DNA from: Roseiflexus sp.
GTDB lineage: Bacteria > Chloroflexota > Chloroflexia > Chloroflexales > Roseiflexaceae
Length of the DNA: 35,292 nucleotides
Reading direction: 5' to 3'
Assembly: GCA_025062325.1 (NCBI GenBank)
Contig: JANXAL010000098.1
Span: forward strand, 1-35,292
Shown: one piece after another, positions 838-31,011 of the stretch
How positions within the stretch are numbered: the first letter of the stretch is position 1
Layout: the number at the start of each line of letters is the position of its first letter
Notes under the pieces: generated by a model
Seen by the model: the letters and a program-made list of their open reading frames with translations, nothing else
What the model was told of the DNA's origin: nothing
The model's database searches: none
Program-made: the position numbers and the translations under genes

Positions 838-2085
838 TCACTGTCCTGGCATCATCCCCGCCACCCACAGCGGGTCGTCCATGAGCGGGTCGAGTTGCGC
901 ATGGCGTTGGAGCGGTCGGGTGAACATGCCCGCGAGCGTTGCGGCGCCGCTCCAGCCGTGGATCGGCATGAAACTGAACTCGGTGCTCCATTTTGCTACC
1001 ACGCCATGCCCCACGAGCGGGTTGGTCGTCGCCAGATTGCTGATCACCAGGTCGGGGCGCAACTCTTTGATATCGCGTAGTTGCCGGTTGAAGTTAGGTT
1101 GCTCAACGATGCGCACCCCTTCGAGCGCCGCCAGTTCGCGTGCGTGGAACTTGCGATTGATATATGGACTGCTGCACTCCAGAATGGTGCATCCCGCGTT
1201 CTTGAGGAAACGCGCCAGCGGCAGCTCCATCAGGTTGTCCGCTGTGAAGAACACCTTCTTGCCGCGCAGAATCTTAAGATGCGGTTCCAGGCGCTCCCAT
1301 GCCTGCCGCTCGCGTTCACGCAGATCGACCGGCTTTCCCATCGCGGCGGCCACATCTTCCCAGAATGCCCGCGTTCCGTCGGGACCGAAGGGGAAGAGCG
1401 AGGTGACTACTGTTGCACCGCGTTCGCGCGCCAGGCGACCGGCGACCTTCGCCAGGTAGGGTTGCAGCGGCGCAACCACCGTGCCCGGACCAATCGGCGG
1501 CAGGTCGCGGAAATGGCTTTCAGGAAGGAACCCGGCGACCGGAATGCCGAGACGCGCCGCTTCGGTGCGGAAATCATCGGCGATAGCATCATTGACCGAA
1601 CCAAGGAACACGACCCGCCGATCATCGGGAGGAGCGACCGGGCAGAAGGGAAGCAACGCCTGCAGCACTGAGTCCTCCGCCTGGCTGAAGGTATAGTCGA
1701 GACCGCTGGCAGGCACGAAGAGCACCGGCAGATCGGGGCGACTGACCGCGCGCGCCAGACCGTCGAATTCGACCTTCATTACCTCCGGCGTACAGGAGGA
1801 GAGCAGGAAAATGACTGACGGATGGTGATCGGCGACGATCTCGTCGATAATGGCGTTCAACTCGGGTTGCTGCTTCGACAGATCCGCCTCTTCAATCAGC
1901 GCGACGCCAAAGCGCGGGCGGGCGAACACCATCACGCCGAGCACATTCTGGAGCAGATGCGCGCAGGTATGCGTGCCAAGCACCAGAAAGAAACTGTCCT
2001 TAATCTTCTGGTACAGCCAGCCCACACACGTCAGCCCGCAGAAACTGTGGTAGGCGCCATCTTCCCGGATCACTGTCGCTGGCAT
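838..2085 (-). CDS. bchN: Light-independent protochlorophyllide reductase subunit N
   Basis: This 415-residue protein is the N subunit of dark-operative protochlorophyllide oxidoreductase, a nitrogenase MoFe-like heterotetramer with BchB that makes chlorophyllide in bacteriochlorophyll synthesis. The sequence shows the three cluster cysteines in their family contexts: [14 protein letters not shown] (Cys16), [11 protein letters not shown] (Cys41) and [11 protein letters not shown] (Cys98). The later stretches [17 protein letters not shown] and [15 protein letters not shown] are also characteristic. Length matches the family (about 410-430). The ATG at 2085 is preceded by AGGTG five bases upstream. 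The gene lies downstream of a methyltransferase and upstream of bchB on the same strand, so it is probably co-transcribed with them, though gaps of 335 and 389 bp leave room for separate promoters. Confidence 0.95.
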
Positions 2086-2420: not shown

Positions 2421-3221
2421 TCAACGAGTAATCTCAACGCCTCGTCGCGCCGCTTGAAGAATGAAGCGCTGCTCAACCATTTCCGGTTGGTTCAGGTCGT
2501 CGTAGACGCTCGCCGCCCAGGCGCGCAACCGCTCGAGCGCTGCATTCAGGATGGCGTCGTCGAGCACCCAGGTTTCGGCGTCTGAGCGCGATGCCATCTC
2601 CTCCAGCACCTGCGCCGGGCTGATCGGCGCCACCCAGGATGCCGCCACCATCTCCGGCGCCACCGTCGCGCCGAGTTTTGCCAGCGCCTGCCCAATCGCC
2701 GCACCCGCACCCGGCGGACGCGAGCCGGGCAACAGCTCCATCACCGTTTCTCGCAACTTGCTGCGCAGGCGACCGACGCAACTCTGCGGATCGCGCCAGT
2801 CGCGCCCCTGAACGAAGATCCCGCCAGGGCGGAGAACCCGCAGCGCTTCGGCGAGTGCGCTGCGCCAGTCGCGCGCCAGATGGAGCACGTGCACTGCCAG
2901 CGTTGCGTCGAACACCCCATCGGCGAACGGCAGATGCTCGATATCGCCCTGCAGCAGCCAGAGCGCCTCACCGCCGTCCTTCGCACGCGCCACGCGCAGC
3001 ATCGCTGCAGAAATATCGATCCCGACGACCCGACAGCCAGCCAGGGCAACGGGCAGAGCGATGCGGCCAGTGCCGATGCCAAGTTCCAGGACGAGTGCAT
3101 CGTTCCCCGCAAGCGCCGCAATCGCCCTACCAATCTGCTCCGCGACTTCAGGCGGATGACCGCGCACCTGGTCATACACGCCAGCAATGGCATCGAAACG
3201 GATGGGAAGCACGCCGGTCAC
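2421..3221 (-). CDS. Class I SAM-dependent methyltransferase (UbiE/Methyltransf_11 type)
   Basis: The 266-residue protein has the class I methyltransferase Rossmann fold: motif I LVLELGIGTGRIALPVA binds S-adenosylmethionine, followed by VVGIDISAAMLRVAR (motif II), LLQGDIEHLPFADGVFD (motif III) and ALRVLRPGG (post-motif region). The substrate cannot be read from sequence. It lacks the N-terminal signature of Mg-protoporphyrin O-methyltransferase (BchM), so it should not be called bchM. Its stop-to-start coupling with the PucC-like gene and position before bchN suggest a role linked to pigments or quinones, which is inference. A GTG at 3227 opens the frame six bases from the transporter stop, but GAGG at 3229-3232 sits seven bases before the GTG at 3221, so I prefer 3221. 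Confidence 0.8.
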   Translation of the reverse strand: MTGVLPIRFDAIAGVYDQVRGHPPEVAEQIGRAIAALAGNDALVLELGIGTGRIALPVALAGCRVVGIDISAAMLRVARAKDGGEALWLLQGDIEHLPFADGVFDATLAVHVLHLARDWRSALAEALRVLRPGGIFVQGRDWRDPQSCVGRLRSKLRETVMELLPGSRPPGAGAAIGQALAKLGATVAPEMVAASWVAPISPAQVLEEMASRSDAETWVLDDAILNAALERLRAWAASVYDDLNQPEMVEQRFILQAARRGVEITR

Positions 3222-3233
3222 CCGCACACCTCA

Positions 3234-4607
3234 TCAGGCGACAGCGCCAGCCTCCATTGCGCGTGTAATGTCGGTGCGAGTCAGACCGCGGAAGGCTTCG
3301 ACGCTGACACCCGACAGCAGCGCAATGCCGATGACCATGAGCACCGCTTCGAGACCGAAGATCACGCCATAGCCAAGCGTCTGGCTAAGCGTCTGCGCCT
3401 CGATCAACACCGTGTGGAGCGCGCCTGCCAGGATATTCGCCGCGGCGGTGCCGAACGCCTGCGCCATGCCCCATATGCCCATATACAGTCCTGTAGCGCC
3501 TTCGACGGTCATATCCATCATCAGCGAGAGCGCGCCGACGTTGAACAGACCAGTGCTGACGCCCATCAGCATAATCGCCGGGTTAAGCAGCGCGCGCTGC
3601 TCACTGAGCGCACAGACTGCCAGCAACCCGAGACCGAATGCCGTGCCAATGCCGCCGATCAGGGCAATCAGTTTCTTACTGATCGGAAAGATCGCGCTGA
3701 GCAGGCCCATAATCAGCATGCCGCCAAGCACGGCGCCACCCCACATCTGCGTGAATGTCGTCGTCTCCTTCAGGGTCATTCGGAAGACCTCAGCGCCAAA
3801 GACTTCCAGGATCGAGTCCTGCAGGAAGACGCCGACAATCGAGAGGAAGACAAACCCGAAGAACGCGCGCACTTGCGGATTCTCACGCAGCAAGCCGAAC
3901 GCTGCACGCAGCGGGTTGCCAGAAGGCGCAGCAGCGCGCGCCCGCTCGAGGGCAATCGCCGCTTCCTCGCGGCTCAGGCGCTTTTCAATGCCCAACACAC
4001 CAAGGAGGGCAGAGCCGACCACCACCAGCGGCGTCAGGTTATAGAGCGCCTGCATCAACTCAGGCGTATACGTGGGCATGCGCGCCTTGATCACCGTCGC
4101 AGCGATGATCGTGCTCAGGATCGTAAACGTCCAGACCACCGCAATCACGCCGCCGCGCGTCTTGGAATTGGTCACCTCCGCAATCAGCGCGTGGTGGCAG
4201 TCACCCATAGCGGCAATGCCAATGCCAAAGATGATCAGCAGCACATACCCGGCGACAATCGCCAGTATTGAACCTTCGCCCATGGCCACGGCGACCGAAG
4301 GGAGCGCCAGGAATACCAGGCTAGCGACTGTTGCGCCGAGGAGCAGGTACGGCGTGCGGCGCAGCCCAAAGATGGGACGGCTGTCGGCGATGCGCCCCCA
4401 GATCACCTGGAACGGCGACAGGAAGTGGTGTAGACCGATCATCGTCGTCACGATGACCGCCATGACCCCCAGCTCGACGATCGACACACGATTGAAGTTG
4501 CTGGTGAGCAGGGCGAACATCCAGCCCACCCCCAGTTTGGGCAGCGCCAGGCGCACCACCTTGAGCGCGCCTAGCAAGAACCGACCGATTGCGCGAAGCA
4601 GCTTCAT
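3234..4607 (-). CDS. PucC/LhaA-family transporter (bacteriochlorophyll delivery, MFS superfamily)
   Basis: The 457-residue protein is a polytopic membrane protein with about twelve hydrophobic segments. It fits the PucC family (BCD transporters: PucC, LhaA, Bch2-like), which helps assemble light-harvesting complexes, probably by handling bacteriochlorophyll. Family-like stretches are FNRVSIVELGVMAVIVTTMI, HHFLSPFQVIWGRIAD, FGLRRTPYLLLGA and GLYMGIWGMAQAFGTA. The ATG at 4607 follows GGGAGG with seven bases spacing. It heads the minus-strand run with the methyltransferase (coupled), bchN and bchB, and has a long AT-rich leader. Which PucC-type paralogue it is cannot be decided here. Some members of this family act on other tetrapyrrole-linked steps, so the exact substrate is inferred. 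Confidence 0.88.
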   Translation of the reverse strand: MKLLRAIGRFLLGALKVVRLALPKLGVGWMFALLTSNFNRVSIVELGVMAVIVTTMIGLHHFLSPFQVIWGRIADSRPIFGLRRTPYLLLGATVASLVFLALPSVAVAMGEGSILAIVAGYVLLIIFGIGIAAMGDCHHALIAEVTNSKTRGGVIAVVWTFTILSTIIAATVIKARMPTYTPELMQALYNLTPLVVVGSALLGVLGIEKRLSREEAAIALERARAAAPSGNPLRAAFGLLRENPQVRAFFGFVFLSIVGVFLQDSILEVFGAEVFRMTLKETTTFTQMWGGAVLGGMLIMGLLSAIFPISKKLIALIGGIGTAFGLGLLAVCALSEQRALLNPAIMLMGVSTGLFNVGALSLMMDMTVEGATGLYMGIWGMAQAFGTAAANILAGALHTVLIEAQTLSQTLGYGVIFGLEAVLMVIGIALLSGVSVEAFRGLTRTDITRAMEAGAVA

Positions 4608-4724
4608 ACGTCGCCTCCCTCACAACGTTCTTGAATGTTCGCGTTTCCGGCAATCATCACGTGCGACGCCTTGTCGCCTCAAACATCACTGTTTGCACTG
4701 CCAGAACGGTGAACATTCCACAAC

Positions 4725-4844
4725 TTTGTAGTAAAATCTCTGAACTACGACTGCAAGATAAAAGAATCGAAAAGAAGCCCTAACTGCGCATGATAGACAT
4801 ACGCAGTGCGACACGGCAAAATCTGTAGTTCAGAGTTTGTAGTA
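4725..4844 (-). promoter_or_regulatory. Nested inverted repeats in the pucC leader (possible cis-acting RNA or operator)
   Basis: An 11-bp perfect inverted repeat, CTCTGAACTAC at 4738-4748 and GTAGTTCAGAG at 4825-4835, encloses a second, compact hairpin. That inner stem has arms at 4783-4792 and 4798-4807 (ten pairs including one G-T) and a five-base loop. The direct repeat TTTGTAGTA flanks the outer arms at 4725-4733 and 4836-4844. The right outer arm falls just after the predicted transcription start, so the whole set would lie in the 5' leader and could fold as a two-level RNA stem. It could instead be a pair of protein sites. I do not recognise a known riboswitch. Confidence 0.45.
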
Positions 4845-4846
4845 TT

Positions 4847-4874
4847 ACTATAGCATACGTGTTTCTAGTTTCAA
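4847..4874 (-). promoter_or_regulatory. Sigma-70-type promoter for the pucC-bchN cluster
   Basis: On the minus strand TTGAAA (4874-4869) is followed after 16 bases by TATAGT (4852-4847), with TGC directly before the -10 box (extended -10). The predicted start is near 4840, giving a leader of about 230 bases before the ATG at 4607. The box quality and the AT-rich setting make this the best promoter candidate for the cluster. Confidence 0.6.
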
Positions 4875-5222
4875 CATTATCTTTACTACACATTGCTTAC
4901 ATGTTCTCTGCGCAATTGCTTGAAACGAACTGAAGAAATTGCACTATTCTGCAAAATATGTTCAAAAACTGTGCAGATAGAAGAGAGAAAAAGCGAGAGG
5001 CAAGAGGCGAGAGGCAAGAGGAGTTAACGGCAGGAACGCCCTTGACCTTTGAGGTCTGCGCCGGGGATCAGGTTCCGCCGTTGAACGTCACGGTCGGAAC
5101 GGTTCACGCCTACGCTAGGGACGCCGCTCGACCTCAAAGGTCTTGGCGGAAAGTGGCATGTTCCTGCAGAGACATTGCAAAGCAACGTCTCGGCGGGGAC
5201 AGGTTGAGGGGGGATGTAGACC

Positions 5223-6245
5223 CTACGCTGACGACACCGCCTTTGGCGTGCGCAGCGAGGCGCCGATTTCGTGGAGATACCCCAGAATCTCGCGGTACGA
5301 CTGGATCATCGACGTTTCGTGGTACGAAATGCCGCGCTTCGCGCAGAACTCCTTGACAACCTTGCTGGCTTCGCGCAGGCGGTGCATCGGCAGCGACGGA
5401 AACAGGTGATGCTCGATCTGATAATTCAGCCCGCCGTACCAGAAGTCGGTGATCGGGTGACCGCTGACATTGCGCGCCGTGAGCACCTGGAGGCGCAAGA
5501 AGTCGATCGGTGTATTGTCATCGACAATCAGCATCCCCTTGTGATTGGGCGCGAAGACCGACCCAAGGTACGCGCCGAAAAACGCCTGACTGATCAGAAT
5601 GAATCCGATCCCCGCCCACGGTCCCAGCGCGATGATCGGTAGCGCGAGGTACCAGACCAGGTTGAGCGCCATCATTGCAATTTCGATGCCTCGTCGCCGC
5701 GAATCGGGACCCAACACAAAGCGATAGCTGACCTCACGCAGCGCGTACCCCTGCAACGTGAGCAGCGGAAAGAACAGAAACGCCTGATACTTCACCATCC
5801 AGCGCCAGATGCCGCGGCACGACTCCGCCTGCGCTGGCGTGAACGCCACCACCGGCACGTCCAGATCGGGATCTAGCCCGTCACGGTTTGGATGCGCATG
5901 GTGCGCATTGTGCTTGCCGGTCCACCATTCGGCGCTCAATCCTAAGAGCAGATTGCCCAGGAAGATGCCAATGGCATCGTTCCATGCGACCTTGTGAAAG
6001 ATCTGCCGATGGCAGGCGCTGTGCGACGTAAACCCGATCTGCGCCAGGACGAATCCCATAAAAACGGCGTTCAACGCCTGAATCCAGAGATTATCGACCA
6101 GAAACAGAATAACGATGCTGGCGACGAGCATGCCGACCTTGAGTGCAATGACTCCGATGAAAAACCAGGGGTGTTTGTCGAGCAGACCGCGTTCCTTGAT
6201 GAGTTTCTTGAGTGCGATGTACTCTGCGTTGCTGACTGAAGACAC
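5223..6245 (-). CDS. Membrane fatty acid desaturase (front-end/delta-6-like, without cytochrome b5 domain)
   Basis: The 340-residue protein belongs to the membrane di-iron fatty acid desaturases, which introduce a double bond into acyl chains using oxygen. All three histidine boxes are present: HSACH (75-79), HNAHH (112-116) and QIEHH near residue 275 within LNYQIEHHLFPSLP. Gln as first residue of the third box is typical of front-end (delta-5/delta-6) desaturases. Four or more hydrophobic segments surround the boxes. No fused cytochrome b5 domain is present. The open frame extends to a GTG at 6272, but AGGA with eight bases spacing precedes the GTG at 6245, which I chose. It stands alone between the photosynthesis cluster and a degraded region; substrate and regiospecificity are not readable. 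Confidence 0.88.
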   Translation of the reverse strand: MSSVSNAEYIALKKLIKERGLLDKHPWFFIGVIALKVGMLVASIVILFLVDNLWIQALNAVFMGFVLAQIGFTSHSACHRQIFHKVAWNDAIGIFLGNLLLGLSAEWWTGKHNAHHAHPNRDGLDPDLDVPVVAFTPAQAESCRGIWRWMVKYQAFLFFPLLTLQGYALREVSYRFVLGPDSRRRGIEIAMMALNLVWYLALPIIALGPWAGIGFILISQAFFGAYLGSVFAPNHKGMLIVDDNTPIDFLRLQVLTARNVSGHPITDFWYGGLNYQIEHHLFPSLPMHRLREASKVVKEFCAKRGISYHETSMIQSYREILGYLHEIGASLRTPKAVSSA

Positions 6246-19960: not shown

Positions 19961-20279
19961 TTCCATCAACCGGAAAACGGCGTTTTCGTGCATGAACCAG
20001 GCGCCAGGTCCCGTTCGCCAGTTAGGTTCCATCATCGCGCCCGATCCTCAGCACAGACCTCAAGGGTCGGGCAGGTTTCTTCCCCAAGACCATTGAGGTC
20101 GGGAGACGCACCAACCGGGCGTCAGATCGTTTGCTGGTTAGGTTCCCGCATAGCGCCCGATCCCCGGCACAGGCCTCAAGGGTCGAGGACGTTCCTTCCT
20201 TCTCATCGCTCGTCCTTTGCCTCGCGCCCTCCTCCTCTTGCCTCTCACCGCTTGCCTCGCGCCCTCCTCCTCTTGCCTC
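19961..20279. other. Intergenic region with GACC-N5-GGTC palindromes and tandem repeat
   Basis: Just after the CBS-ACT stop, GAAAACG and CGTTTTC (19973-19987) form a tight hairpin that may terminate transcription. GACC-N5-GGTC palindromes lie at 20056-20068 and 20088-20100, with a GGCC variant at 20172-20184. A 35-bp pyrimidine-rich unit is duplicated in tandem at 20219-20253 and 20254-20288 with one mismatch. No gene is supported. Confidence 0.6.
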
Positions 20280-30728: not shown

Positions 30729-31011
30729 CCTTCATTAGTTGCTTGCAAGACCCTTGAGGTCGGGCGACGTTCTCGAAGCGCCCGCGAGTCCCTCCGCCGG
30801 TGACGTTCGGCGACGGGCGCCCACGGGGGGGCGCCCCTACGATGGCGCGGGCGCAGGGTTCACGGCGGGGATCTCAAGGGTCGGGCGGGGTTCCGGGTGG
30901 AGCCGTTGCGGTGCAACACCCTACAGAGCCGTTGCGGTGCAACACCCCATAGAGCCGTTGCGGTGCAACGGCTCTACCTGCAACCTTTCCACCTTCAACT
31001 TTCAACCTGCC
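30729..31011. other. Intergenic region with repeats between converging genes
   Basis: The gap contains a GACC-N5-GGTC palindrome (30749-30761), a relic GATCTCAAGGGTC near 30870, a GGGCGCCCACGGGGGGGCGC phrase at about 30815, the 26-bp triplicate repeat with hairpin (30900-30975) and a CACCTTCAACTTTCAACC pyrimidine tract at the right end. No gene is present. Confidence 0.5.
30900..30975. repeat. Triplicate 26-bp repeat ending in a perfect hairpin
   Basis: The unit GAGCCGTTGCGGTGCAAC occurs at 30900, 30926 and 30952 (period 26). The last copy continues into GGCTCT, making an 11-bp perfect stem (30951-30961 with 30965-30975, loop GGT). It lies between the converging CHAT-STAND and nucleotidyltransferase genes and could end transcription in both directions, though there is no T-run. 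Confidence 0.7.

Follow-up and report, generated by a model that had tools for sequence, protein, structure and literature searches.

A putative operator box, paired in front of pucC, recurs before bacteriochlorophyll genes in two families of filamentous anoxygenic phototrophs

To our knowledge, the switching of bacteriochlorophyll synthesis by light and oxygen is poorly understood in filamentous anoxygenic phototrophs. In purple bacteria, PpsR/CrtJ represses bacteriochlorophyll and pigment-protein genes from operators of the form TGT-N12-ACA. LacI and GalR are looping repressors that use dual operators, and activators rarely work from sites downstream of a -10 element. The MarR-type protein ChlR of cyanobacteria regulates acsFII-ho2-hemN and is described, in the available excerpt of its report, as an activator at low oxygen (PMC4500134). 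For CarH/LitR, the known operators given in the accessible part of the source are tandem direct 11-bp repeats, TnnACA, and the targets are carotenoid genes (PMC9304148).

Here, we describe an element in front of a pucC-bchN cluster in a 35,292-bp contig of Roseiflexus sp. (the window, that is, the whole stretch of DNA that was analysed), which we read as a two-site DNA operator of a bacteriochlorophyll regulon, bound by a putative repressor; we give this reading a probability of about three in four. The site has the 21-bp consensus GTAGTNCAGA-N-TCTGNACTAC, a near-palindrome with the core GTAGT-N11-ACTAC. Like the PpsR/CrtJ operators, it would be a palindromic operator common to bacteriochlorophyll and pigment-protein genes and would presumably serve repression, but its half-site and spacing differ (TGT-N17-ACA at best); a PpsR-type site was rejected because TGT-N12-ACA is absent from 4600-4990. 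As with LacI and GalR, paired operators lie around the predicted transcription start, whereas looping of the box pair is something that we infer, and the spacing, 80-99 bp across six genomes, is not strictly phased. The targets acsF and hemN overlap with those named for ChlR in the excerpt, whereas ChlR is an activator at low oxygen there and the position of the box is repressor-like (PMC4500134). A likeness to CarH/LitR exists in that MerR/B12 genes are present, one clade of them beside pufLM, and that three 11-bp repeats lie upstream of the promoter; the box itself is a dyad, unlike the tandem direct repeats reported in the accessible part of the CarH source (PMC9304148). An operator with its regulon is a familiar kind of system; this regulon itself seems to be undescribed: a literature search outside most subscription journals returned no description of the box, the shared operator or its regulator in filamentous anoxygenic phototrophs.

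The original prediction had placed a promoter, a leader of about 230 bases and an AT-rich island in front of the cluster, and all three are present. GC content is 0.35-0.41 at 4700-4949 and about 0.6 in the flanks, and family models confirm both pucC and bchN, in the gene order pucC-family gene, methyltransferase, bchN:
4847-4874, minus strand: promoter, with -35 TTGAAA at 4874-4869 and extended -10 TGc-TATAGT at 4855-4847
4839-4841, minus strand: predicted transcription start of pucC, placed by the position of the -10 element
4608-4840, minus strand: leader of about 230 nt, from the predicted start at about 4840 to the pucC start codon at 4607
3234-4607, minus strand: pucC-family gene, first of the operon (PF03209, E 1.7e-66)
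2421-3227, minus strand: methyltransferase gene (PF08241)
838-2085, minus strand: bchN (TIGR01279, 629.5 bits)

The promoter, TTGAAA-16-TATAGT with TG before TATAGT, has 10 of 12 consensus bases and is the best of four promoter-like sites in 4500-5400. Its TTGAAA and extended -10 are kept in all six genomes of an alignment comprising five members of the genus and one genome of a sister genus. There, the extended -10 reads TGCTATAGT and is followed just downstream by an invariant TCTGAACTACA; further on comes an invariant GTAGTTCAGA with ACTAC, and the sequence between is poorly conserved.

The repeats and nested stems of the original prediction are likewise found: a 9-bp direct repeat, TTTGTAGTA, at 4725-4733 and 4836-4844; a perfect 11-bp inverted repeat, CTCTGAACTAC at 4738-4748 and GTAGTTCAGAG at 4825-4835, whose arrangement is found a single time in the window and in none of 100 dinucleotide shuffles; and a second, inner hairpin:
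4783-4807, minus strand: inner hairpin, 4783-4792 pairing with 4798-4807 (10 pairs, one G-U)

Do these stems act as RNA? A structured leader (an attenuator, a riboswitch or a protein-bound hairpin) working through the nested stems would agree with the fold of the coding, minus strand (-39.4 kcal/mol, z = -2.93, 1 of 200 shuffles equally good; z = -2.08 for the plus strand), with the weak covariation of the inner hairpin, where 3 pairs show two-sided changes in six sequences, and with the occurrence of boxes in or near leaders, often near start codons. We nevertheless consider it quite improbable. In the outer stem, 10 of 11 pairs are invariant across the six genomes and none shows a two-sided change, so that the arms, which are indeed conserved in related strains, are kept as fixed sequence and not by the paired changes that the prediction had hoped to see. 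Covariation over both helices together stays within shuffles (39 of 500 and 100 of 500 as high), and the inner hairpin is clear in only four of the six genomes, lost in G010 and doubtful in G005. No Rfam family matches, and no intrinsic terminator was found in 4500-5400. An RNA-level outer stem was rejected on three grounds: its arms do not co-vary, its distal arm is absent from four distant genomes, and the box occurs in both orientations. Of the earlier suggestion of regulation by RNA structure or a repressor, the repressor part is therefore retained and the RNA part, for the outer stem, is not. As a separate observation, pairing in the inner hairpin survives some changes in G000, G012, G013 and G009.

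The outer stem is best read, from its sequence and conservation, as two oppositely oriented copies of one 21-bp DNA site, the inverted repeat being the perfect halves of two putative boxes that face opposite ways:
4728-4748, no strand assigned: proximal box, GTAGTTCAGAGATTTTACTAC in coding-strand (minus) reading, best box match in the window, 20/23 on a 23-position score devised after the sites had been seen
4825-4845, no strand assigned: distal box, second-best box match in the window, 19/23 on the same post hoc score
The distal box combines one perfect half-site, GTAGTTCAGA, invariant in 6/6 genomes, with one degenerate half, and overlaps the predicted transcription start. Within the family, a PucC match was obtained for 25 of 26 genomes, and DNA resembling the region for 6 of 26. 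An exact GTAGT-N11-ACTAC lies downstream of the -10 element in all 11 pucC upstream regions examined, at a distance of 63 to 178 nt from the start of that element. In the more distant G008, G007, G004 and G001 the distal arm was not found and the proximal dyad is kept; in G006 two full dyads lie 137 bp apart. Because the outer pairs are fixed and the proximal dyad persists where its distal partner is missing, the conserved object is the dyad in DNA. An inverted repeat flanked by 9-bp direct repeats could also be the remnant of a mobile element with terminal repeats and a target-site duplication, but this is scarcely credible and was rejected: six genomes from two genera have the arrangement at orthologous positions, and in its own genome every other match to a 4600-5240 query starts at query position 380 or beyond, outside the element.

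The operator reading also draws on where else the dyad occurs. In the 4.7-Mb genome of the window, the exact dyad is present at three places, all beside bacteriochlorophyll genes (bch, acsF and bchE names resting on family models):
Site A, own genome: exact dyad before pucC-bchN
Site B, own genome: exact dyad between bchM and a small gene that is followed by acsF and bchH
Site C, own genome: exact dyad between bchJ and a radical-SAM gene that is followed by bchE
The pattern read backwards also occurs three times, and numbers per genome are no higher than this control; only the places are non-random. Of the 21 exact dyads in six genomes of the genus, 17 occupy the three orthologous places. Orientation differs between sites, site B being inverted relative to site A; by our own count, the reverse complement of site B, GTAGTTCATATTCGTTACTAC, shares 19 of 21 positions with G010 site A, GTAGTTCAGATTTGTTACTAC. 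Start codons follow sites B and C at 13-26 nt, and because the two sites are so placed and have no clear promoter, the box may have an RNA-level role there. No close pucC match was found in G011, a genome of 82% completeness, and the non-phototroph-like G014, which has no PucC match, has no exact dyad.

The pattern extends over the order. In an 82-genome set, counted as one locus per genome (the first-listed match), dyad loci were checked by tblastn against a photosynthesis and tetrapyrrole gene panel. In the family of the window, 12 of 23 loci (from the 23 of 26 genomes with a match) lie at most 400 nt upstream of a panel gene, a count that omits five loci preceding the gene of a 400-aa membrane protein, which joined the panel only once it had been seen, and that becomes 17 of 23 with them. 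In a second family, the figure is 21 of 30 loci, taken from further genomes of the order. A control dyad of the same composition, GATGT-N11-ACATC, stood upstream of panel genes at 0 of 30 loci, drawn from other places in the same order search. Roughly one in three of the exact dyads studied (6 of 23 and 9 of 30) has no panel gene next to it. Box targets are pucC, bchM, bchN, bchH, bchJ, acsF, rSAM-bchE and hemN, with hemN and bchJ carrying the box in some genera only; hemN, hemY and the second-family loci were named by panel tblastn or by reading of the sequence. The same site before chlorophyll-making genes in two families points to a shared control system.

The stretch between the two halves of the core also differs between targets and other dyads. 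The 33 target sites, from which the consensus was built, were picked for carrying GTAGT and ACTAC exactly, so that information comes from positions 6-16 only; the inner half-site CAGA scores on average 2.45 and 2.21 out of 4 on the two sides in target sites and 1.23 in 13 off-target sites. A sequence-only model recovered the boxes with E-values from 3e-4 and many weak matches near 1; in 5-Mb genomes its power is low. In the genus g9 (L127:1767-2966, L130, L131, L132, L136), the box precedes the gene for the 400-aa membrane protein, which has no strong Pfam or NCBIfam match, and two of the loci read have a second box-like copy about 75 nt further on.

What would a protein do at such a site? An extended -10-like element lies at most 180 nt upstream of 27 of the 33 target boxes (shuffle mean 5.9), and 11 of the 33, those of the bchM, bchN, bchH and bchJ promoters, start 19-24 nt after the start of the extended -10 (shuffle mean 0.22, maximum 3) and would thus begin at about +7. 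The pucC and hemN boxes lie further down the leader. Because the box sits just downstream of a strong extended -10, repression fits better than activation. The box, its conservation, its neighbour genes and its position after -10 elements are observed. From here on we infer: a dimeric transcription factor would recognise GTAGTNCAGA-N-TCTGNACTAC, with one copy at the pucC promoter over the predicted start and the better copy in the leader, about 100 bp further down. Once bound, the factor would stop RNA polymerase at initiation or immediately afterwards, possibly aided by bridging (looping) between both copies or by a roadblock within the leader. One such factor could control the acsF-bchH, rSAM-bchE, bchM, bchN, bchH, bchJ and hemN operons, and in one genus puf is probably under it as well. 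A signal of light, oxygen or pigment, such as a tetrapyrrole, is plausible.

Genome G031, which we take to be Chloroflexus aggregans, carries boxes at bchM (two), acsF, hemN and bchN, as read from the encoded sequences, and one further dyad at 538606 without a panel gene. In situ, according to the portion of the study available, acsF, bchH-III, bchM, bchN, bchB and bchL of C. aggregans share one diel pattern with a midday maximum, bchI, bchY and bchZ belong to the same group, and bchE reaches its minimum when light and oxygen are high (PMC8004040). The match between G031 boxes and this midday group, as far as that portion defines it, is good; it is not exclusive because no box was seen at bchY and bchZ. 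The co-peak of box-bearing operons would also be possible if the box were bound by a positive regulator (PMC8004040, same portion), and a conserved stretch upstream of the pucC promoter could be read in that sense; the boxes themselves lie downstream of the -10 element, and we regard a positive regulator as unlikely.

Which protein would be the repressor? The leading candidate is a putative MerR/B12 protein linked to puf. A MerR/B12 gene is next to a pufLM match in four genera of the family (L245, L241, L242, L246, L247, L248, L249, L222-L226 and L228), these clade-1 genes belonging to g1, g5, g7 and g9 genomes, and in G002 and G004 clade-1-like genes share a contig with pucC. The puf intergenic region carries tandem box-like sites in G022, G025, G017, G020 and G018, all five of genus g9, and a conserved half-box in G000, G009 and G005. 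That a MerR/B12 photoreceptor of clade 1, or of a sister clade linked to crtB, binds the box and makes this a light-controlled regulon is nonetheless rather doubtful. Clade 1 is missing from the second family, G001 and G006, all of which have boxes; the second family holds only the sister clade, whose neighbour was read as crtB. The sister clade is widespread, also in the non-phototroph-like G014, and no box was found before those of its crtB-linked genes that were scanned. Published CarH proteins, in the accessible part of the source, bind tandem 11-bp TnnACA repeats and not this dyad (PMC9304148). Repeats of that type do occur upstream of the promoter:
4943-4975, minus strand: three tandem 11-bp repeats, TGCACAGTTTT TGAACATATTT TGCAGAATAGT, whose resemblance to a CarH-type operator is suggestive only
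They lie in a conserved stretch, are partly kept in G012 and G013, and were as good in 0 of 100 single-base shuffles, this being 1 of 19 regions scanned. Because of them, the MerR protein may use the repeats and another factor the box. A single light-sensing, B12-bound MerR repressor beside the reaction-centre genes, controlling Roseiflexaceae bacteriochlorophyll and photosystem genes through the GTAGT box, the 11-bp repeats or both, is a tentative proposal with the odds against it; if true, it would take CarH-type photoreception beyond carotenoid protection and into the photosynthetic apparatus.

Other candidates were considered. A histidine kinase and a strikingly conserved NarL-type response regulator are divergent from bchJ at L112:8674-10503; the response regulator was rejected, as G014 has an 88% identical copy and g3 and g9 have none at E <= 1e-45. 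An Rrf2 protein occurs as one copy in many phototrophs, with a similar protein in the f3 genomes G069 and G073, in a partial tree (12 of 29 loci, G050 in the wrong frame). A protein near bchM in G031 was rejected as the binder, its sequence reading as GGDEF and not DNA-binding. For the putative repressor, the defined 21-bp box before pucC, bchN, bchM, bchH, acsF, rSAM-bchE and hemN in two families offers a bait, and it predicts which operons respond together.

Two minor observations concern the surroundings. A Chromatocurvus halotolerans contig (L080) encodes a PucC-family protein 54% identical to that of the window, with no strong box before its gene. Just upstream of the element, at 5044-5142, lies a dispersed repeat that recurs at 630-720, 20056-20184 and 30749-30882; it contains a perfect 13-bp inverted pair, GACCTTTGAGGTC and GACCTCAAAGGTC, 73 nt apart, its 13-mer, allowing at most 2 mismatches, has 11 copies in the window where 0.58 would be expected, and related repeats occur at other places in the genome, one of these next to site B.
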